In this document: positions 1,415 to 10,809 of the stretch, one piece after another
Position numbering within the stretch: the first letter of the stretch is position 1
Layout of the letters: each line of letters starts with the position of its first letter
The notes under the pieces: generated by a model
Databases searched by the model: none
Told to the model about the DNA's origin: nothing
What the model saw: only the letters and a program-made list of their open reading frames with translations
Virus record (IMG/VR): IMGVR_UViG_3300025120_000713
Coordinates: 1-20,740 of that record
DNA length: 20,740 nucleotides
Origin: a virus
Strand: one strand, 5' to 3'
Made by a program: the position numbers and the translations under genes

Positions 1415-4400
1415 ATGGGAATTACAAGCAAACAAAAAGCAGATATAGATAAACTTACCGAAGGTAACTCTGCTGCTAAAGCTCGTATTCAAGCAAGAGT
1501 AAATAAACTCCTTCAATCCAAAGGTAAAAAACCTGTTATGCAAATGGCTCCGGGTGGTGATGTTCGATATCGTAGTCAGTACGATAAACTTGTAGCTCAA
1601 CAGCAAGGCTCAACACAACCTGTTATGCCCGGAACTCCCGGTACAGAAAACTATCAAGATAGTCTTGGCCCTGCAAAAACTGACAATCAAAACTTTCAAT
1701 TACCCGGCTTCGGAAAACCAAGACCACGAGCAAAAGAACCAGTAGAAACACCAGTAGAAACACCAGTAGAAACACCAGTAGAAACTACTACTGCTGCACC
1801 TACACTTACAACCCCAGATAATTTAACAACTACTTATGCTATAGATGACCCTCGTAATCCTAATTATGTAGCACCAGATCAACCAATAAATATACCTTCA
1901 GATGATCTTATTGTCCGACCTAATATACCTGAAGAACAACCTTACAATTACTTTAAAACTTTAAACCCAGATGGAACTTATAATTACAAAAGAGTTCAAG
2001 GTATGGGTAGAACTGCAAATGATCTTGAATCAACTAAAGAAGAATATGAAGCTTCTCTAAAAGATAAAGAAACAGAATCTTTACCTGATCCTAAAGATAG
2101 TGTTGTAAAAGAAGAAGATATACCTGACACACCTAACGGAAAGTTTGCTAAAGAAATACTAGAAATGTCAACAGGTTTAAGAGAACCTGATTTAAAGTAT
2201 GACTTTAATGGTGATGGTAAAGTTACAAGTCAAGATGCTTTAGATATGGCTAAGTATGATATTACTTCACCAGCACCAGTAATGCCCGATGATGTTGTAG
2301 AACCTGTTAAAGATGAAGCTATCTTTGATGCTGAAGCTTATATGGATGCTAACCCTGAAGTTAGAGAGTCTTACGAAGCTACACCACCCGGCAGAACACC
2401 TTATGATAGTTATGTAAGATATGGTTCAAAAGAAGGTAAAGAATTTCCTATTGATAAAGTTAAACTTAAAGAATTATATCCAGAATATTCTAATGCTAAA
2501 GAAAACTTTGATAAACAAACAAAAATTTATGAGGCATATACAGACTTTAGTCTTAGACCTCAAGAGTTTGATTCAAGTGTTACTGTAGATTATCAAACTG
2601 AATTAGACAATCTTCAAAATGATTTAGCTAAACAATCTTCTATGATTACTACTATGCCTACAGGTGTAGCTCCACCTGCTGAAGGTGAAGAAGATACAAG
2701 AACCTACGAAGAAAAAGCACAGTTTGAAGCTAATCAATCAGCATTAAAAAAGTTTGCAGAAACACAAACACAAACAAATGTTGCAAAGAAAAACCTTAAA
2801 AATGCAGGAACAAAATCAGGTGTTGAACTTCTTGCAGGTATTCAAGAAGACCCTATGGCATCTGTTACTAAACAAGATGTATCTAAACTGGCTGATAAGG
2901 TAGACCCTAATCAATTTATTGACGAAGATACTGGACAAGTTAAAACTAAAACACAAGCAGGAGTAACAACTGTTTCAGGTACTGCTGTCGCAGATGATCC
3001 TACTGCAGTAGATGAAGCTACTTATGATGCTGATACTGTAACTACAGAAGCTAAGAAAGAACTAGAAGGTCTAGCTGGTGCTGAGTCAGAAGGCCCAAGT
3101 AAAACTATTGTTGGTCAAAAAGGTAAACTTAGTACTCGATCTGTAGCTGACGATGCTATGAAAGTTAATGAAGATCGTATTAACAAAGTAAAAACAAAAA
3201 CTAATATTACTGTAGATAATGATCAACTAGCAGAATTTAAAGGTGAAGACTATGCAAAAGTTGTAGCTGATATTGCTGTATCAGATGCACTGGTTAAAGC
3301 TAAAGCACAAACAGGCTCTGTAAGACTAGAAGAACTTCCTCCACCAGCAGAAATTGCTGAAGATCAAATGGCTTCTGCACAAGCTATGCAGGATATAGGA
3401 TTAGTTGCAGATGCTATACCTGTTGCTGCTAGAATGGCAGCTTTTAGTGTAAAAGATGGTACACTTGCACTAGCTATGGAAGGTAATGTAGATGCACTGA
3501 GTACTGTAGAGGGTCAGCTAAGTAAGCTTATGAAGTCTTTTGATGATGGTACACCTTCATGGGCTTCTGGTGCTATACGTGCTGCTAATGCAGCCTTAGC
3601 TTCTCGTGGATTAGGTGCATCTTCTATGGCAAGTGTAGCTATACTTAATGCAGCTATGGAAAGTGCATTACCGATAGCACAACAAGATGCTAATACTTTT
3701 GCTACAATGGGTTTAACTAACCTAAACAATCAGCAACAGGTAGCATTAAGTAATGCTGCTGCACAACAAGGACTATCGTTAGCTATGCTTAGTAATGAGC
3801 AACAAGCTAACTTACAAAAAAGTTCTAATGCTTTTGCATTACAAACACAAAATTTATCTAACAGGCAAAGTGTAGAACTTGCTAATGCTCAGATACGTGC
3901 TACGTTACAGGGTAAAATTCTTGACAACACACAACAGTCTAACATTATTATTGCTGCTAGGTATGCTGAATCTGCTAACATTAATTTAAGTAACAAACAA
4001 CAGGCTGCAATGCAAGACAGTGTTGGTTCTTTACAAACTAATTTAGCTAACTTAACTGCTAAGTCTCAGTCATATATTACAAGTGCTAATCTTGCTGCCA
4101 ACTTACAAGGTCAAGTACTAAGCAATGATCAACAGGTGGCTATTACTAATGCAGCTAGATACTCTGAAGTATCTAACATAACTTTTTCTGCTGATCAACA
4201 AAGGGTACTACACAACTCTTCTTTGATGCAGTCAATAGGTCTTGCTGAATTAAGTTCAGAACAAGCTGCTGTCTTACAAAATGCTGCTAATTTTGCTGGC
4301 TTGGATATGACTAACCTATCTAACCTTCAACAGGCACAGGTAGAAAATGCTAAAAACTTCTTAAACATTGATTTAGCTAACTTGACAAATGATCAACAAG

Positions 4401-4978
4401 CTATTATGTTTAAAGCACAAGCAACACAGCAAGCATTGTTATCTGATCAAGCTGCAGAGAATGCTGCATTAAACTTTAATGCTTCTTCTGAAAATCAAAT
4501 CAATCAGTTTAATGAAACTATGAAGGCTCAAGTAAGCCAGTTTAATGCTACACAAACTAATGCTATAGCACAGTTTAATGCAGGGGAAATGAATGCTACT
4601 GAAAAGTTTAACACTCAGTTAGAAGCAGACAGGAAAAAGTTTAATGCACAGAATGCACTAATTGTAGAGCAAGCTAATACTAAGTGGAGACAAGACATAG
4701 CTACTATAGATACTGCTGCAGAAAACTCTGCTAATGCTGCTGCGGCTGCGGCTGCTAATGAACTTACTCAAGCAGCTATAGGTGAAGTATGGCAACAAGA
4801 ACGTGACTTACTTGATTATGCATTTACTGCTGCTGAAAGTGAAAAAGATAGAACTAATAATATTATAGTAGAAAAAATGAGGGCTGACTCTACTACTGAT
4901 GCTGCAAAAATGAAAGCTGAAATGGATGCTGATGCCACTATTGGTGCTGCAGTTCTTCAATTTGCATTCGGTAAATAG
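1415..4978 (+). CDS. Giant repeat-containing virion-module protein (putative internal/ejection protein)
   Basis: A 1187-aa protein with clear modules. Residues 1-50 are basic. Residues 100-130 are a Pro/Thr linker with four PVET repeats. An EF-hand/dockerin-like loop lies at 263-275 (DFNGDGKVTSQDA). Residues 304-342 contain AYMDANPEV and YGSKEGKEFP, the pattern of short modules seen in some secreted and S-layer proteins. A long acidic region follows. Residues 712-768 contain an Ala-rich stretch (PSWASGAIRAANAALASRG) that I associate from memory with marine phage structural proteins. Eleven exact 22-residue repeats span 770-1011 and six 11-residue repeats span 1020-1085. The end is helical. 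There is no signal peptide. AAGG lies seven bases before the ATG. Directly upstream of the transglycosylase, it probably belongs to the internal-core or tail machinery. A tail or host-contact role is an alternative. Confidence 0.7.
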   Translation: MGITSKQKADIDKLTEGNSAAKARIQARVNKLLQSKGKKPVMQMAPGGDVRYRSQYDKLVAQQQGSTQPVMPGTPGTENYQDSLGPAKTDNQNFQLPGFGKPRPRAKEPVETPVETPVETPVETTTAAPTLTTPDNLTTTYAIDDPRNPNYVAPDQPINIPSDDLIVRPNIPEEQPYNYFKTLNPDGTYNYKRVQGMGRTANDLESTKEEYEASLKDKETESLPDPKDSVVKEEDIPDTPNGKFAKEILEMSTGLREPDLKYDFNGDGKVTSQDALDMAKYDITSPAPVMPDDVVEPVKDEAIFDAEAYMDANPEVRESYEATPPGRTPYDSYVRYGSKEGKEFPIDKVKLKELYPEYSNAKENFDKQTKIYEAYTDFSLRPQEFDSSVTVDYQTELDNLQNDLAKQSSMITTMPTGVAPPAEGEEDTRTYEEKAQFEANQSALKKFAETQTQTNVAKKNLKNAGTKSGVELLAGIQEDPMASVTKQDVSKLADKVDPNQFIDEDTGQVKTKTQAGVTTVSGTAVADDPTAVDEATYDADTVTTEAKKELEGLAGAESEGPSKTIVGQKGKLSTRSVADDAMKVNEDRINKVKTKTNITVDNDQLAEFKGEDYAKVVADIAVSDALVKAKAQTGSVRLEELPPPAEIAEDQMASAQAMQDIGLVADAIPVAARMAAFSVKDGTLALAMEGNVDALSTVEGQLSKLMKSFDDGTPSWASGAIRAANAALASRGLGASSMASVAILNAAMESALPIAQQDANTFATMGLTNLNNQQQVALSNAAAQQGLSLAMLSNEQQANLQKSSNAFALQTQNLSNRQSVELANAQIRATLQGKILDNTQQSNIIIAARYAESANINLSNKQQAAMQDSVGSLQTNLANLTAKSQSYITSANLAANLQGQVLSNDQQVAITNAARYSEVSNITFSADQQRVLHNSSLMQSIGLAELSSEQAAVLQNAANFAGLDMTNLSNLQQAQVENAKNFLNIDLANLTNDQQAIMFKAQATQQALLSDQAAENAALNFNASSENQINQFNETMKAQVSQFNATQTNAIAQFNAGEMNATEKFNTQLEADRKKFNAQNALIVEQANTKWRQDIATIDTAAENSANAAAAAAANELTQAAIGEVWQQERDLLDYAFTAAESEKDRTNNIIVEKMRADSTTDAAKMKAEMDADATIGAAVLQFAFGK
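1739..1786 (+). repeat. 12-bp tandem repeat, four copies (PVET linker)
   Basis: Four head-to-tail copies of CCAGTAGAAACA, identical except for the final base of the last copy. They lie in frame in the 1187-aa protein and encode PVET four times (residues 109-124), a flexible proline-rich linker. Perfect copies of this length can expand or contract by slippage without breaking the frame. Confidence 0.9.
3722..4447 (+). repeat. Eleven tandem 22-residue (66-bp) protein repeats
   Basis: Residues 770-1011 of the 1187-aa protein divide into eleven consecutive units of exactly 22 residues with no insertion or deletion. Each unit begins L/F-[S/N/D/T]-x-x-x-[Q/S/A], most often LSNxQQ, then x-x-[L/I/V/M]-x-[N/S/K], and most carry Leu, Ile or Val near position 20. 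The DNA copies have diverged, so this is an old protein-level repeat. The LSN start looks like a helix cap, so each unit may be one helix of a solenoid or one double hendecad of a long coil. Confidence 0.9.
4472..4669 (+). repeat. Six tandem 11-residue (33-bp) FNA repeats
   Basis: Residues 1020-1085 of the 1187-aa protein form six units of exactly 11 residues, each starting [N/Q/K]-F-N-[A/E/T]. Phenylalanine recurs every 11 residues (1021, 1032, 1043, 1054, 1065, 1076). This is a hendecad pattern, typical of right-handed or straight coiled coils, and half the period of the preceding 22-residue repeats. Confidence 0.85.
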
Positions 4979-4988: not shown

Positions 4989-5849
4989 ATGACACTTTTT
5001 AAACCTAAACAACTTAGCTCTGCATCTCTTACTTCTCTAGCCCCTCAAATTGCTAGTGCAGATCAAAGATATGCTGGGCTTATGATGAAGACTATGAACA
5101 CTAAAAAACTAGCTAATAAAATTAATTTAGAAGGTAGAAGTCACCAAGCAAATTTACAAGCAGAATTATTAAGTGGTGGTAATATATATCAAACTGCTAG
5201 TGCAAGAATGAATGCACTTCCCAACATGGGTTGGTTAGCTAGTCAAGATGAAATAGATAAAGAAGTAAAAGAAAAATCTTCTGATTTTAATTTATCAGAA
5301 GAGCTTTATGGTAAAAAAGGTACAGATAATAATACTGTTGTAAATTGGTCACACTACAATGATGATGTACCTGTAGAAGGCTATACTCGTAATGCTGGTG
5401 GTGCTCCTAAAGAAGTGCAACAATCTATTATAAAACAAATTATACAGGTTGGTCGTGCACTTCAATCTACTGATGAAGAAATAGCTACTGCTTTAGCAAT
5501 AGCTAGACATGAGTCTGGTTTTAATCCTTATGCTGCTGCTAGAATAAGTAGTGCCTATGGTATAGGTCAATTCTTAGATGGAACAGGTAAAGAGTACGGA
5601 TTAAATCAACAAAATAGAGATGATGTTGGAATGCAAATTCAGGCTTTAATAGAGTTTACACAGAAAAACTTTGAGACTGCAAAGAAAAGAGGAAAAGGTT
5701 TAGAGTATGTATATAAATATCACCATGACGGTTCAGCAGTAGGAGCAGATAGTGGTGGGCTTGCTCTTTCACAAAATAAAATTATGCCTTTCATACCAAA
5801 GTACTTAAAGATAGTAGAAGGATACTCACAAGATGAACAAGGAATTTAA
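4989..5849 (+). CDS. Virion-associated lytic transglycosylase (SLT/lysozyme fold)
   Basis: A 286-aa protein when started at 4989. Residues 163-205 carry the lytic transglycosylase signature: ALAIARHESGFNP with presumed catalytic Glu175, then a short gap to SSAYGIGQF (188-195), the usual E-S-x-F-N-P ... A-x-G-x-x-Q-F pattern. Such enzymes cleave the MurNAc-GlcNAc bond of peptidoglycan without water. The N-terminal 140 residues are polar and helical, with no signal peptide, and are unassigned. In T7 the equivalent domain is the N-terminus of the huge internal protein gp16. Here it is a small separate protein between two proteins of about 1180 residues. It most likely cuts the cell wall locally during DNA entry. 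A role in final lysis is possible because no other endolysin is visible in this window. Confidence 0.85.
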   Translation: MTLFKPKQLSSASLTSLAPQIASADQRYAGLMMKTMNTKKLANKINLEGRSHQANLQAELLSGGNIYQTASARMNALPNMGWLASQDEIDKEVKEKSSDFNLSEELYGKKGTDNNTVVNWSHYNDDVPVEGYTRNAGGAPKEVQQSIIKQIIQVGRALQSTDEEIATALAIARHESGFNPYAAARISSAYGIGQFLDGTGKEYGLNQQNRDDVGMQIQALIEFTQKNFETAKKRGKGLEYVYKYHHDGSAVGADSGGLALSQNKIMPFIPKYLKIVEGYSQDEQGI

Positions 5850-6363
5850 TGCTCCAATACCGGGGCAGTCTTTAACTAAGACTCCGGGGAACTATCCTTG
5901 GGAAAGACCACCTGAAATAACTAATGTAGACGAAGCTGTTAAACGTCACATAGATAATATATCAGAACCAGAAGCTATTGATAATATTCTTTTCGTATTA
6001 AAAGCAGGACTGCCTGTAAATATTTTAACAGAAACATTACTTACTACTGCTGTTAGTAAGGGAATACATAGCATAGATATTAGTTTACTAGTTGGCCCTA
6101 TTTTATTTAGAGAAATAAAATCTTTAGCAGAAGAATCTGGTATAGAATATAAAGAGTTCTTTGATGACTCAGAGTTACAAGAAAATGATAAAAGAAGTAA
6201 AGCAAATGTTCTTCTTAGAAAAGCTATAGCTGATACACCTGAAGAAGAAAAAGACTCTGGCTTTGAAATACTACAAGAACTTTCCAGTGAGTTATCTCAA
6301 CCAACAGAACAAGAAGAAAAACCTATGGGTCTTATGAGTAGGAGTACATCTAATGGTAATTAA
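5833..6363 (+). CDS. Virion-module protein with PGQSLT...PWERPP N-terminus, unknown function
   Basis: A 176-aa protein that overlaps the transglycosylase by 17 bases and the next gene by 11, so translation is probably coupled. The N-terminus (PIPGQSLTKTPGNYPWERPP, residues 8-27) is proline-rich and extended. I recall similar N-termini in proteins of marine phage structural modules, without an assigned function. Residues 35-110 are predicted helical with hydrophobic segments (ILFVLKAGLPVNILTETLL, ISLLVGPILF). The C-terminal third is acidic and low in complexity (EEEK, QPTEQEEK). GAAGG about 10 bases upstream is a modest ribosome-binding site. No enzymatic motif is visible. Its position between the transglycosylase and the large 1176-aa protein suggests a virion or assembly function. 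Confidence 0.6.
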   Translation: MNKEFNAPIPGQSLTKTPGNYPWERPPEITNVDEAVKRHIDNISEPEAIDNILFVLKAGLPVNILTETLLTTAVSKGIHSIDISLLVGPILFREIKSLAEESGIEYKEFFDDSELQENDKRSKANVLLRKAIADTPEEEKDSGFEILQELSSELSQPTEQEEKPMGLMSRSTSNGN

Positions 6364-7270
6364 TTTAAAGGTTGCACTTGGCGGTGCTGCTGGTCAATAC
6401 TTACGTAATGTAGAAGCTGAAGAAGAATATCTCAGACAGATGAGAACTAAACGATCTGACTATTTATTTGCAAAGGGTGAAGAAAAATTTACAGAAATAG
6501 AAGAGCTAAGTAAAGCTGCTAAAAAAAGAGTTAAAGATGCTACTGCTTTTGGGTTTAGTCAAGAGGCAGCAATGGTACTTGAAGTAACTGATCAACTTGC
6601 ACCACAATTAAAAAGATTAAAAACAGAAGAAGAAAAAGGTGGGGCTATAAATACAGATGCCATTAAAACAGTTAGTAAACTTGTAACAGATACTTTTTCA
6701 GAACAACCAGAGCTTATGGCTGAAGTACTTAAATATATGGGTAATGGTGGCTATCCAGAAAATATAAACGAAATGCAAGACAAGTTCTCTACTATACTAC
6801 TTAGTGTAACTGGTGACATGGACGAAGCAGCAAAGATACTACGTAACATGGATGCTCTTGATGTTCCTGACGTTGGGCCTATCTCGTTTCAAACAAGAGC
6901 CTTAACAGATATGGGTGCTACTGAACGTAACAGTGTAATAAAAAATATTCAAGCTACTCTTGGTGGTTATATAAATGATACAACAATTAATGAGCAAGGA
7001 ACTTGGGTGGGTGCAAATAAAAATGCTGCACAAAGAATACAAAATGAAATTTTAAATTACTATACAAAACAAAGATCGAATCCTTCATACACTGGTGATA
7101 TAGGAGATGTGTTAAGTGAAGCAGCACAAAGTATTCAACGACAAGTATCAGCAGATGGTGCAAACTTAAGCACCATAACTATTTTTAATCCTCCTGTTGA
7201 TGAAGATGAAGAGGATATTACTCTACCAATAAGAAGACCTGAACCACTACCAATTCGACTTGAACCATAG
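6353..7270 (+). CDS. Helical virion-module protein, unknown function
   Basis: A 305-aa protein starting inside the end of the previous gene (11-base overlap). Residues 1-16 contain a small alanine/glycine-rich segment (VALGGAAGQYL). Residues 20-95 are highly charged and helical (AEEEYLRQMRTKRSDY, EEKFTEIEELSKAAKKR), consistent with a coiled coil. The middle is mixed. The last 30 residues form an acidic then proline/arginine-rich tail (PVDEDEEDITLPIRRPEPLP). No known catalytic motif or family was recognised. Its place in an unbroken run with the transglycosylase and the two giant proteins suggests one of the internal or ejection proteins, in the way T7 gp14 and gp15 accompany gp16. That is positional inference only. 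Confidence 0.6.
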   Translation: MVINLKVALGGAAGQYLRNVEAEEEYLRQMRTKRSDYLFAKGEEKFTEIEELSKAAKKRVKDATAFGFSQEAAMVLEVTDQLAPQLKRLKTEEEKGGAINTDAIKTVSKLVTDTFSEQPELMAEVLKYMGNGGYPENINEMQDKFSTILLSVTGDMDEAAKILRNMDALDVPDVGPISFQTRALTDMGATERNSVIKNIQATLGGYINDTTINEQGTWVGANKNAAQRIQNEILNYYTKQRSNPSYTGDIGDVLSEAAQSIQRQVSADGANLSTITIFNPPVDEDEEDITLPIRRPEPLPIRLEP

Positions 7271-7278
7271 GAAATAAA

Positions 7279-10200
7279 ATGGACTCTTATTTAAATGGCA
7301 TAGAAGATAAAAGCTTTGCAGAACTTAAAGATAATATAGACTTTAAGTATGACCTAGTTGATTTTTTTAAAGGTGATAGATATGCTATGACCGAAGATGA
7401 AATGGTAGAAGAAGGTTATGAGGGTTTAACTAAAAAGTTTATTGAGCATATGAGATTTCAAGAATGGAATGATGCTACTGCTGTAAAAGATTTAAACTTT
7501 ATTAACAATAAAAAAGCTGACCCTCAAAGTAAAGTAGCTTTTGGCAGATTAATACAAGCTTGGGATAACTCTGCTAAAGCAGGTACAGGATTTCTTGATG
7601 GTGCTGCAGATGTAGGTGAAGCATTAATTAAATCTCCTTCTACTTACTTAGGTTTTGGATCGTTAGGTCTTGCTAAAGTAGGTGCTAAAGGTGCTACTAA
7701 AGTTGCACAGTTAGCTGTTAGGAGTAGGATAAAAGAATATTTTAAAAAGAAAGCAGTGCTTAAAGGTGCAGCTACTGGTGCTGCAGTTGAAGGTTCTATT
7801 GGTAGTGTACAGTCGTATGGTATGGGTGAAAGCAGAGAAGCACTTGCAGAACAAGGTAACTTTATAGAAGGTTACGAATATTCTAAAGGTGACTTAGCTC
7901 AAGATGTTGTACTTAACTCTACAGTTGGTGCAGTCTTTGGTGGTCTTGGTGGAAAATTAAATAGTAAAATTGTTAAGGATAAGGAAAAACTTTTTGGTGA
8001 AAGAGAAAAAGCTATTGCTGCTGCAAAAGAAAAGGCAAAAGAAACTGCCAGTGAAACAATTAAAAAAGCCGAAGACGAAACTCCTGATGTTGTTAAAGAA
8101 GCCCTTGAAAGAACTGTAACAATGGTGAACACTCTTTCTGCAAGAAGGGGTGGTAAAAATGTATTAGACCCACTTGATCCACAAGAAGTAGCAATGGGTG
8201 AAGCAATTAAAAAAGGTATAATAGATACTGGTGTAGATGAAGGTGGTGCATTTTCCTCTGGCTTAGACATTACTACTATACGTTCTATAGCTGCAGCTAC
8301 AATAGAAATAAGTAAAAAGTTTAACGTAAACCCTAAAGAAAGAATAACCTCTGCTATTGCTACAGCAATTCGTGACCCAGACTCAGACGCATTTAGTTTT
8401 TTAAATGACACAAGAGAAAAGTTTAATCTAACAAAAGAACAAATGTCTTTTATTTATTTAGCAGATGTATCTAATGCAGGTAAGATACTTGCTGAACAGT
8501 CTGCTATTGTACGAAAAGGTAATAAGGCAGCTACTTCAGGTAGAAGCACAGCAAAAAAAGATTTACGTAATCAACTAACAGATTTAAAAGTGCTTGCTGA
8601 AGGAGGTTTAAGTAGTATAGATGACATCGAAGCAACAGATATATCTGCAAATGTCGTAAAAAATACTGCTGTAAGAGGTGGTGTAGAAATAACTTACAAC
8701 TTCTTACAAGACTTAGACCAAATGCGTATTGCATTTATGACATCTCAACCTGCTACTACTGCAAGGAACGTAGCATCTACTGGATTACTAGCAGTGGTAG
8801 ATGTAATGGATGAATCTTTTAGGAGTATCTTTAGGGCTGGAAAAGGAGAAAGAGCTAACTTTAAAAATATTTTTTCTGTTCTAAAAGGAATGACATACGG
8901 TAAATCTGAAGCATCTTTAATGAGAGACATGCTGCAAACAGAAATGCCTGAAGTATATCAAAGAACATTTCACGACACCCTTAGGATGGAAGTAGCTACT
9001 AAAAGTAATTCTCGATTTGCAAAGGTTGGTCGAATAGTAAATATGGCAAACACTGCTACTGATACTGTGTTTAAAGAAACAGCTTTTTATGGTAGCATAG
9101 ACAGACAACTAAGGTTGTTAAATGATAAAACTCTTGGTACTAGTGTTAGAGATTTTATAAATAAAGGTGGTAAATTAGATAGCCTAAAAGAAAAAGTAGC
9201 AAAAGGTTTAGAGAATAAAGATAAAAAAATACCGGGAGATGAACAGGGCACTAGCATACTAGATAAAGCAGTAGATGATGCTAATAGATTTACTATGCAA
9301 AGAACTTATGTAGGTGATCAGTCTTTATTTGGTAAGGGTGCAAGAGTAGCATCAAAACTAAATGAAAGGATGCCATTTGTTATTTCTGGATTTATGGGTA
9401 TACCTTTTCCAAGATATATAGCAAACCACATGGAAATGATAATGGACTACACCCCTTTTATTCCAGAGATGCTAAACGTACTAGAGGATCAAGCTGCAGC
9501 TAAAGGAAAAAAAGTTACTTATATTACAGGCGATCCATATAAATCATTAGAAGATAGAAGGGTTCGTCAACTTACTGGTGCATCCCTTATCTTAGCAGGT
9601 TCATATATAGCAAGTCAAAAAGAAGGGGAAATAGATTACAAATCATTAGAGAACCAGATAAAAGGTGAGGATGATATCTCTTCTTCCTTAGGTTTTCTTA
9701 TTGCTCCTATCTTTATAGGGGATACAATTTACCGGGCTAATAATGGACTACCGTATAGAGAAACTGTATTAAGAGATACTGCTAGTGTACTAGGTGGAAT
9801 AGAAGACATGGGGTTTGATGCTACTGGTCTTAAAACACTTGCCGATACTATTATGAGTGATAAGAAAAAAGCAGAAAGCCGTGCAGAGAAAATGTTTGGT
9901 AACATTTTTTCTGTCTTTACTTATCCAGCAACTCCAATAAGAGATTTAATGGGGCAGTTTAATTACGACTCTTCTGGTTCACCATACACAAGGCCACTTG
10001 GTATGGGAATAAAAGATGATCCTAGCACACCTGATGTTGACGAATCAGTATCTGATAGCCAAAGACCAGAAGGAATATTTGTAGGTCAGGCTACAAGATT
10101 TTTACCTGATGTAGCTTTTAGGCAATACAGTCAAAGCAGAGAAGGTAATCCTAATTATGACTATGAGTATTACAGCATACTTAATAAGCAACCTATTGCT

Positions 10201-10809
10201 ACAATGAACCCACTAAAGAAAACCTTTACTGGTGTTGCTGCTAATCCCACACTAACTGAGTTAGGTAGAGAGTTTAATAAATTAAAGATTGAAGAAAGAG
10301 ATGTATACAATAACAACAAAAATGTTAATCCTGTTGTGGACTATGTTGTAAGAAGAGATTTGTCTCAAAACCTAAGCCTAATATTTAATAAGTGGGCAGA
10401 AACTAACGTGTTTGATGATGGTGAAGAGGCAGGTAAAACCTATAACCAACTAACTGATAGTGGTCAAAAAAAAGATAGGCTATTAAAATTTGTTAATCAA
10501 AGAATTAAAGAAACAAGTGAAAAGTATAATAATGCACTTACAAACTTAATGAGCACTAATCCTATAAAAGCTAGAGGTTACATTAGAAATCAATACATGC
10601 TTAAAGTAAATGAAATAGGTATAGCTAAAATGGACTTTGCTACTAAGTATATGTATGATGCAGGTATGATAGATAAAAAGTATTCCTCGGCACAAGAACT
10701 TTTAAGTAGTGCCGAGAACTTAAACCAAGAAATGCAAATAAGACTGAAGCTTATCTTTGTTGCTAACTCCAACAGAGTAGATTCAAAAGCTGAGAAGCTA
10801 GTAGATTAA
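7279..10809 (+). CDS. Large internal virion / putative DNA-ejection protein
   Basis: A 1176-aa protein, the last gene of the + strand block. AGGAA six bases before the ATG supports the start. Residues 101-226 are rich in Gly/Ala and hydrophobic residues (AGTGFLDGAADVGEAL, YLGFGSLGLAKVGAKGATK, LKGAATGAAVEGSIGSV, VGAVFGGLGG), a composition common in phage proteins that insert into the cell envelope during DNA entry. Residues 230-275 are a charged helix rich in Ala/Lys/Glu. Two more hydrophobic stretches lie near 765-782 and 803-814. The rest is long and helical, with no nuclease, protease or ATPase motif seen. Size, position at the end of the structural operon and the neighbouring transglycosylase suggest a functional counterpart of T7 gp16 that lacks the enzymatic domain. 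Homology to gp16 was not established. A terminator-like hairpin for the opposite strand lies inside its last 130 bases. Confidence 0.6.
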   Translation: MDSYLNGIEDKSFAELKDNIDFKYDLVDFFKGDRYAMTEDEMVEEGYEGLTKKFIEHMRFQEWNDATAVKDLNFINNKKADPQSKVAFGRLIQAWDNSAKAGTGFLDGAADVGEALIKSPSTYLGFGSLGLAKVGAKGATKVAQLAVRSRIKEYFKKKAVLKGAATGAAVEGSIGSVQSYGMGESREALAEQGNFIEGYEYSKGDLAQDVVLNSTVGAVFGGLGGKLNSKIVKDKEKLFGEREKAIAAAKEKAKETASETIKKAEDETPDVVKEALERTVTMVNTLSARRGGKNVLDPLDPQEVAMGEAIKKGIIDTGVDEGGAFSSGLDITTIRSIAAATIEISKKFNVNPKERITSAIATAIRDPDSDAFSFLNDTREKFNLTKEQMSFIYLADVSNAGKILAEQSAIVRKGNKAATSGRSTAKKDLRNQLTDLKVLAEGGLSSIDDIEATDISANVVKNTAVRGGVEITYNFLQDLDQMRIAFMTSQPATTARNVASTGLLAVVDVMDESFRSIFRAGKGERANFKNIFSVLKGMTYGKSEASLMRDMLQTEMPEVYQRTFHDTLRMEVATKSNSRFAKVGRIVNMANTATDTVFKETAFYGSIDRQLRLLNDKTLGTSVRDFINKGGKLDSLKEKVAKGLENKDKKIPGDEQGTSILDKAVDDANRFTMQRTYVGDQSLFGKGARVASKLNERMPFVISGFMGIPFPRYIANHMEMIMDYTPFIPEMLNVLEDQAAAKGKKVTYITGDPYKSLEDRRVRQLTGASLILAGSYIASQKEGEIDYKSLENQIKGEDDISSSLGFLIAPIFIGDTIYRANNGLPYRETVLRDTASVLGGIEDMGFDATGLKTLADTIMSDKKKAESRAEKMFGNIFSVFTYPATPIRDLMGQFNYDSSGSPYTRPLGMGIKDDPSTPDVDESVSDSQRPEGIFVGQATRFLPDVAFRQYSQSREGNPNYDYEYYSILNKQPIATMNPLKKTFTGVAANPTLTELGREFNKLKIEERDVYNNNKNVNPVVDYVVRRDLSQNLSLIFNKWAETNVFDDGEEAGKTYNQLTDSGQKKDRLLKFVNQRIKETSEKYNNALTNLMSTNPIKARGYIRNQYMLKVNEIGIAKMDFATKYMYDAGMIDKKYSSAQELLSSAENLNQEMQIRLKLIFVANSNRVDSKAEKLVD
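10675..10716 (-). terminator. Putative rho-independent terminator of the - strand block, inside the opposing gene
   Basis: CTCGGCAC (10686-10693) and GTGCCGAG (10709-10716) are perfect 8-bp complements around a 15-base loop. Read on the - strand, the stem is followed after six bases by five T's (10679-10675). It lies about 90 bases beyond the last - strand stop codon, within the 3' end of the + strand 1176-aa gene. A GC-rich stem in very AT-rich DNA plus a T-tract fits a terminator, though the gap before the T-tract is longer than ideal. Confidence 0.5.

Follow-up and report, generated by a model that had tools for sequence, protein, structure and literature searches.

What kind of structure is built by a long array of 22-residue repeats in a viral protein, and which changes in array length are tolerated among the phages that carry it? 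The question is raised by the 20,740-base viral record IMGVR_UViG_3300025120_000713 (analyzed over this whole stretch, hereafter the window), a partial podovirus genome akin to that of Puniceispirillum phage HMO-2011, in which a coding sequence (CDS) at positions 1415..4978 of the plus strand encodes a repeat protein of 1187 amino acids (aa). The repeat is real, unnamed, and far more regular across phages than is visible from one genome. As judged from the sequences, the gene encodes a helical repeat protein shared by HMO-2011-like podoviruses and related ones, composed of 22-residue units whose number varies almost only by blocks of five. Considering structure and role together, we lean modestly towards a five-helix structural period in a protein acting as an ejection (internal virion) protein.

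Sequence and predicted structure of the array

Residues 770-1011 (positions 3722-4447) consist of eleven 22-residue units free of insertions and deletions, exactly at the boundaries given in a preliminary description of this DNA. The mean pairwise BLOSUM62 score between units was 20.1, versus -9.0 ± 1.3 when these 242 residues were shuffled 2000 times (z = 22.8; highest shuffled score -3.8). On average, two units were 28% identical in amino-acid sequence, while DNA identity ranged from about 0.29 to 0.62, and Tandem Repeats Finder (TRF) detected no tandem array at 3722-4447; hence the array has diverged at the DNA level, as had been claimed. The array and its surroundings are arranged as follows:

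1415..4978, plus strand: repeat protein CDS (1187 aa), with relatives collected by tblastn and scans of viral contigs
3479..3721, plus strand: conserved N-anchor (residues 689-769, PxWAxGAxRAANAAxASRGLGASSMA...MESALPIAQQDA), the measuring point for unit counts
3722..4051, plus strand: units 1-5, one five-unit block of 110 aa, absent from 6-unit relatives
4052..4183, plus strand: units 6-7, forming with units 8-11 the six-unit C-terminal set, from the comparison of classes
4184..4447, plus strand: units 8-11, the four C-terminal units, common to most classes
4475..4672, plus strand: hendecad region with six copies of the 11-residue repeat FNxxxxxxxxx, delimited by sequence and by the long helix predicted with AlphaFold2 (AF2)
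4673..4975, plus strand: conserved C-terminal region (EQANTKWRQDIAT...WQQERDLLDYA), after which a Peptidase_S74 domain comes in some relatives

The consensus of the window units was L-S-N-x-Q-Q-A-x-L-x-N-A-x-x-x-A-x-L-x-L-A-N, and across 1548 units the consensus positions were L1, S/N/T/D2, N3, Q5, Q6, L/V/I9, N11, A12 and N22. By established capping rules, this combination of a hydrophobic residue, an N-cap, an S-x-x-Q capping box and a C-terminal Asn points to one helix per unit. Among the relatives, proline was absent from all 70,387 array residues and all 47,504 C-terminal residues, and amounted to 6.3% in the N-terminal region. The AF2 model of the window region (20 sequences) had a mean predicted local distance difference test (pLDDT) of 49.8 and showed helices spaced by 22 residues, spanning positions 3-18 of the unit, then one long helix across the hendecad region (continuous over about residues 992-1097). 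For a 16-unit relative (31 sequences), mean pLDDT was 63.1, with values of 70-80 over most of the array; one helix per unit was again predicted, with a shortened helix at residues 160-171, 270-281 and about 380-394, recurring at 110-residue intervals. The earlier proposal of one capped helix per unit agrees with the capping box, the Asn at position 22, the extent of the predicted helix and the lack of proline, and the regular fold anticipated from a monomer prediction was recovered as helices at 22-residue spacing, albeit at low confidence.

The array runs straight into an 11-residue repeat (FNAxxxxxxxx, with F at residues 1021, 1032, 1043, 1054, 1065 and 1076). The preliminary description had alternatively read each unit as two hendecads; this applies to the C-terminal region only, where an 11-residue periodicity with a hydrophobic core position holds, and is echoed by half-unit (11-residue) steps in array length, whereas the array itself has a period of 22 and not 11.

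No family covered the 22-residue array in searches of Pfam, PHROG and PDB with single proteins and with alignments, which bears out the statement that the unit belongs to no named family. Foldseek searches against PDB and BFVD returned only homologues of the protein itself or designed helical repeats (best PDB match E = 0.026, to designed proteins). A leucine-rich repeat was entertained because of the LxLxNL motif at the unit joint, and was rejected given that no Pfam profile matched and the AF2 model contained no strand. Apolipoprotein-type amphipathic repeats of 11/22 residues are commonly punctuated by proline; they share unit length and the relation to hendecads with the present array, but the latter is proline-free throughout.

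Unit number among related phages

Homologues of the repeat protein were found by tblastn in 27 phage records, each at <60% identity, including HMO-2011, CRP roseophages, pelagiphages, Slicky01, CHOED and others, nearly all of them labelled "hypothetical protein"; several hundred viral contigs also carried relatives. Array length was measured from the conserved N-anchor (SALPIA) to the C-anchor (SDQAAxNA). Loci were chosen by query similarity and some contigs were present more than once; as the number of loci therefore does not represent a census, arrays were also counted as distinct sequences and as 70% clusters.

The first 68 loci had 6, 11, 16, 21 or 26 units; a second lineage had 4 and 9, and half-unit values occurred in a few cases. 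Two more scans led to 236 loci on the same ladders, with 14 units as a new class, and two further scans, made after the ladder had been stated, gave 79/79 loci at 14 units and 52 at 3 units. Classes 19, 24 and 39 emerged only in a late scan, again after the ladder had been stated, and all of them fit it. In the final set (402 loci, 318 distinct arrays), arrays ranged from 2 to 39 units; HMO-2011 and CRP-1 have 6, HTVC115P 9, Slicky01 4, CHOED 2, CRP-235 3 and the window 11. A lattice of 11 residues fitted 316 of the 318 distinct arrays, and among those of at least 7 units, 169 of 171 were exactly 1 or 4 modulo 5 (6+5n or 4+5n). The two exceptions were an array of 11.5 units and one of 26 units minus two residues (L090), the latter being a genuine 26-unit array with a two-residue deletion. 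When 11-unit arrays were paired with 6-unit ones, the alignment gap covered the first five units of the longer array. That the arrays of different phages differ in length by whole blocks of five units (110 residues), with hardly an exception, is thus well supported as an observation across the sampled sequences. The fixed length that had been proposed from the window holds only within this genome and its class.

An array of 39 units (858 residues) was found in L397 (open reading frame around 2501-3451), where like units recur every ten units, i.e. every two five-unit blocks. Unit number was also associated with the length of the N-terminal region (rho 0.69, kinship ignored), a correlation treated as a lead only.

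Origin of the five-unit step

A tree built from the flanking, non-repeat sequence contained eleven non-overlapping clades, each supported at 0.9 or more, in which different array lengths occurred together but always on the ladders. Recombination between flank and array could inflate this count, a problem avoided by comparing arrays with each other, as the pairs are aligned on the array itself. Among 172 array pairs with at least 62% identity, which are mutually non-independent, 152 differed by 5 units and 20 by 10. The closest pairs differed by a single contiguous five-unit block (L024/L089, 85%; L101/L135, 85%; L091/L102, 81% identity outside the gap), the phase of which changed from pair to pair. 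In addition, unit similarity in 21- and 26-unit arrays peaked at multiples of 5 (permutation p about 0.001).

A five-helix period appears, by indirect argument, as the simplest reading of this step size. A period of one helix is disfavoured because single-unit steps would then be allowed, and none were seen among long arrays. A two-helix period is unlikely because an odd five-helix step would flip all later helices in a solenoid of up-down pairs. TPR/HEAT-like alpha-solenoids are made of tandem helices with short turns, two antiparallel helices forming each unit; the array resembles them in its tandem helices and short turns, but steps of five helices would invert everything downstream. As a candidate identity for the array, such a two-helix alpha-solenoid (TPR, HEAT) was rejected, with no Pfam profile match and steps of five units, not of whole helix pairs. 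In the structure proposed here, each unit would be one helix of ~16 residues ending in a tight NLS turn, with five such helices making up one structural period, which could be a full turn of a superhelix or a module of five helices. Both conserved ends and the neighbouring subunits would then stay in register only if whole periods are gained or lost.

The step could also be a matter of history only, one five-unit block having been duplicated once and then propagated by unequal recombination between its copies, so that no structural rule is needed. Under such a history, homologous exchange would yield multiples of five, which fits arrays of 21 and 26 units, where similarity is highest at lag 5, and crossovers at different points would give the gap phase that varies among pairs. 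DNA identity at lag 5, however, averages only 0.41-0.52, versus about 0.40 at most other lags. Moreover, similarity in the 11-unit class is higher at lag 3 than at lag 5, yet three-unit steps are not seen in that clade, and the rule is kept by both ladders (6+5n, 4+5n) and by many independent changes. We consider history as the sole explanation to be possible but rather doubtful. A history of block duplication and a structural period are compatible and not exclusive; a five-helix superhelical turn or block duplication alone may cause the step. Helical repeats held to steps of five across hundreds of diverged phages represent a natural experiment on the tolerance of a repeat fold, from which a testable prediction of geometry follows.

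Gene cassette and putative role in genome ejection

The repeat gene heads a cassette of five genes, encoding the repeat protein, a variable product, a protein of ~170 aa, one of 300-900 aa and one of ~1200 aa. In the window, the genes after the repeat gene are:

4989..5849, plus strand: SLT transglycosylase (SLT E = 3.1e-07), with likely start at ATG 4989 and not at the listed 4926
5833..6363, plus strand: small cassette partner of 176 aa (PIPGQSLT...GIHSIDISLLVGP), of which 218 of 236 relatives have a homologue close behind the repeat gene
6353..7270, plus strand: cassette gene of 305 aa, no family
7279..10809, plus strand: large cassette gene of 1176 aa, no family, with ~1200-aa homologues in 100 relatives

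The 176-aa gene, the most constant neighbour of the repeat gene, had no match in PHROG, Pfam or PDB. The slot immediately after the repeat gene is occupied by an SLT transglycosylase in the window and in L025 (4877-5701), by Phage_lysozyme in L030 (9011-9748), by Phage_lysozyme2 in L034 (3806-4558) and L041 (3895-4725), and by a protein with peptidoglycan-binding domains in L111 (8966-10555). A general link to transglycosylase was rejected, since a profile seeded from the window enzyme matched only 7 relatives and other enzymes occupy the slot elsewhere. The transglycosylase neighbour singled out in the preliminary description is therefore present, yet is one of several unrelated lytic enzymes at that place. 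From these domain assignments, the slot has undergone repeated non-homologous replacement by unrelated cell-wall enzymes, and this repeated exchange suggests that the cassette acts at the peptidoglycan.

In HTVC115P (L006 7447-7893), the gene right after the repeat gene encodes a HlyC-type lysine acyltransferase (Pfam E = 1e-15), and most 9-unit loci have a gene of 149-154 aa at the same place. The HTVC115P enzyme might acylate a cassette protein.

The setting, a virion-gene cassette with a peptidoglycan hydrolase and a protein of ~1000-1400 aa, is of the ejection type. Cassettes of this sort encode the ejection proteins of podoviruses, which assemble into a conduit spanning the periplasm (PMC8954989). 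Those of T7 (gp14/gp15/gp16) and P22 (gp7/gp20/gp16) are alike in being encoded in a small operon of virion genes that ends in a ~1200-aa protein and includes a peptidoglycan hydrolase, and in being largely helical, variable in size and rebuilt outside the head; no 22-residue repeat in five-unit blocks is described for proteins of this type in the consulted sections of the review (PMC8954989). They differ from the present cassette in lacking any sequence match and in that the lytic enzyme here is a separate, exchangeable gene. Kuravirus SU10 gp20-24, which are lost from particles after genome release, i.e. ejected (PMC9509320), likewise form a five-gene cassette of similar sizes, with a transglycosylase in gp20. 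The annotated DNA ejection protein of phage GAP52 ends in an S74 domain, as do some relatives here; no 22-residue array was seen in the translations of the SU10 and GAP52 proteins. True homologues by sequence are HMO-2011 gp25 and its counterparts in CRP roseophages, pelagiphages and CHOED.

Should the repeat protein be an ejection protein, it would pass out of the head via the portal as a slender helical chain free of proline, fold again on the outside, and assemble into oligomers by way of its C-terminal hendecad helix. This would give a rod or the wall of a tube across the envelope, with the neighbouring lytic enzyme opening the peptidoglycan, and added five-helix blocks would lengthen the rod or tube part. 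The periplasm-spanning conduit suggested earlier fits the cassette and stays at the level of inference. The ejection role is favoured over a tail fibre because the five-gene cassette adjoins interchangeable cell-wall lytic enzymes, and its assignment rests on synteny and setting, given that homology to known ejection proteins was tested and not found. In its most specific form, the proposal would be an unnamed solenoid with one helix per unit and a superhelical turn of five 22-residue helices, which marine podoviruses would use as a wall or rod that can be extended within their injection apparatus and that evolves by whole turns (6+5n, 4+5n, up to 39 helices); this we put forward only tentatively. 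If the protein is part of the injection apparatus, which envelope feature selects for more turns becomes a question.

Several points weigh against an ejection protein with a five-helix period. A PDB sequence search gave no characterised ejection-protein homologue, hhalign against the SU10 and GAP52 injection proteins detected no homology (probability 0.1%, with shallow profiles), and a repeat of this kind was not found described for ejection proteins in the literature; neither virion proteomics nor a structure was found for the family. Both AF2 models are monomers of low confidence, in which a five-helix turn is not demonstrated. Short arrays (2, 3, 4, 5.5, 6 and 6.5 units) fit no single ladder, and the lag-5 similarity is not raised in the 11-unit class and also permits a purely recombinational origin of the step. 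Finally, a C-terminal Peptidase_S74, more typical of trimeric tail fibres, is present in L022, L105, CRP-3 and CRP-235.

Because of these S74-ending relatives, the main functional rival is a trimer attached to the tail as a fibre, spike or needle, its shaft made of the helical repeats and its stem a coiled coil, with maturation by the S74 intramolecular chaperone in some relatives. Like Peptidase_S74 tail-fibre proteins, some relatives carry S74 after a coiled-coil region, PHROG tail-fibre profiles match the S74-containing region, and both the long hendecad helix and the RTX and DUF4214 domains of variable N-termini would suit an appendage. Unlike them, the window protein has no S74 and most relatives end before such a domain. 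The C-terminus is conserved and the N-terminus variable, the opposite of ordinary fibres, and the repeat gene shares its cassette with genes for lytic enzymes and a ~1200-aa protein; in HMO-2011 it follows the numerous genes annotated as tail fibres. In addition, Cronobacter phage GAP52 has an S74 domain at the end of a protein that is, by annotation only, a DNA ejection protein. An appendage seems unlikely to us. A molecular ruler, as proposed in the preliminary description, in which unit number would set a tail, core or head dimension, would account for a quantised array length under constraint but is highly improbable, as, across 87 arrays, unit number was uncorrelated with the length of the ~1200-aa gene (rho 0.06, p 0.59) or of the gene preceding it (rho 0.02, p 0.86). 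Anywhere from 5.5 to 26 units occur on contigs of about 50-57 kb, so that copy number tracks neither cassette partner length nor genome size, and these phages are short-tailed.

Variable termini and other observations

Upstream of the N-anchor, the window protein contains:

1415..3478, plus strand: N-terminal region (residues 1-688), poorly conserved (mean column identity 9%) and proline-rich relative to the array
1738..1785, plus strand: within this region, a perfect DNA repeat of 12 bp x 4 coding PVET-type repeats, from a TRF-type repeat scan
2180-2257, plus strand: weak dockerin-like EF-hand (residues 256-281; Dockerin_1 E = 0.0042, below cut-off)

The N-termini of relatives vary, with LysM, PASTA, RTX calcium-binding repeats or DUF4214 (e.g. 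L247 2207-4738, which is CRP-235). The LysM domain, present in CRP-235, is in keeping with the ejection role. Three relatives, including HMO-2011 gp25, share an extra C-terminal extension (FRxWLxxxAPKWxxxxYxKHGExFAKxIxxKPxLKW; L003 7388-8161, L159 1898-2671, L015 9955-10737) without a Pfam match. The bins holding the contigs of L249-L254 are labelled Flavobacteriales, Neomarinimicrobiota, Rhodobiaceae and Euryarchaeota; these are probably misbinned phage contigs, and for that reason the labels say little on hosts. Besides the cassette, the window encodes a class II ribonucleotide reductase, a family A DNA polymerase, a primase/helicase and a Cas4-type exonuclease.

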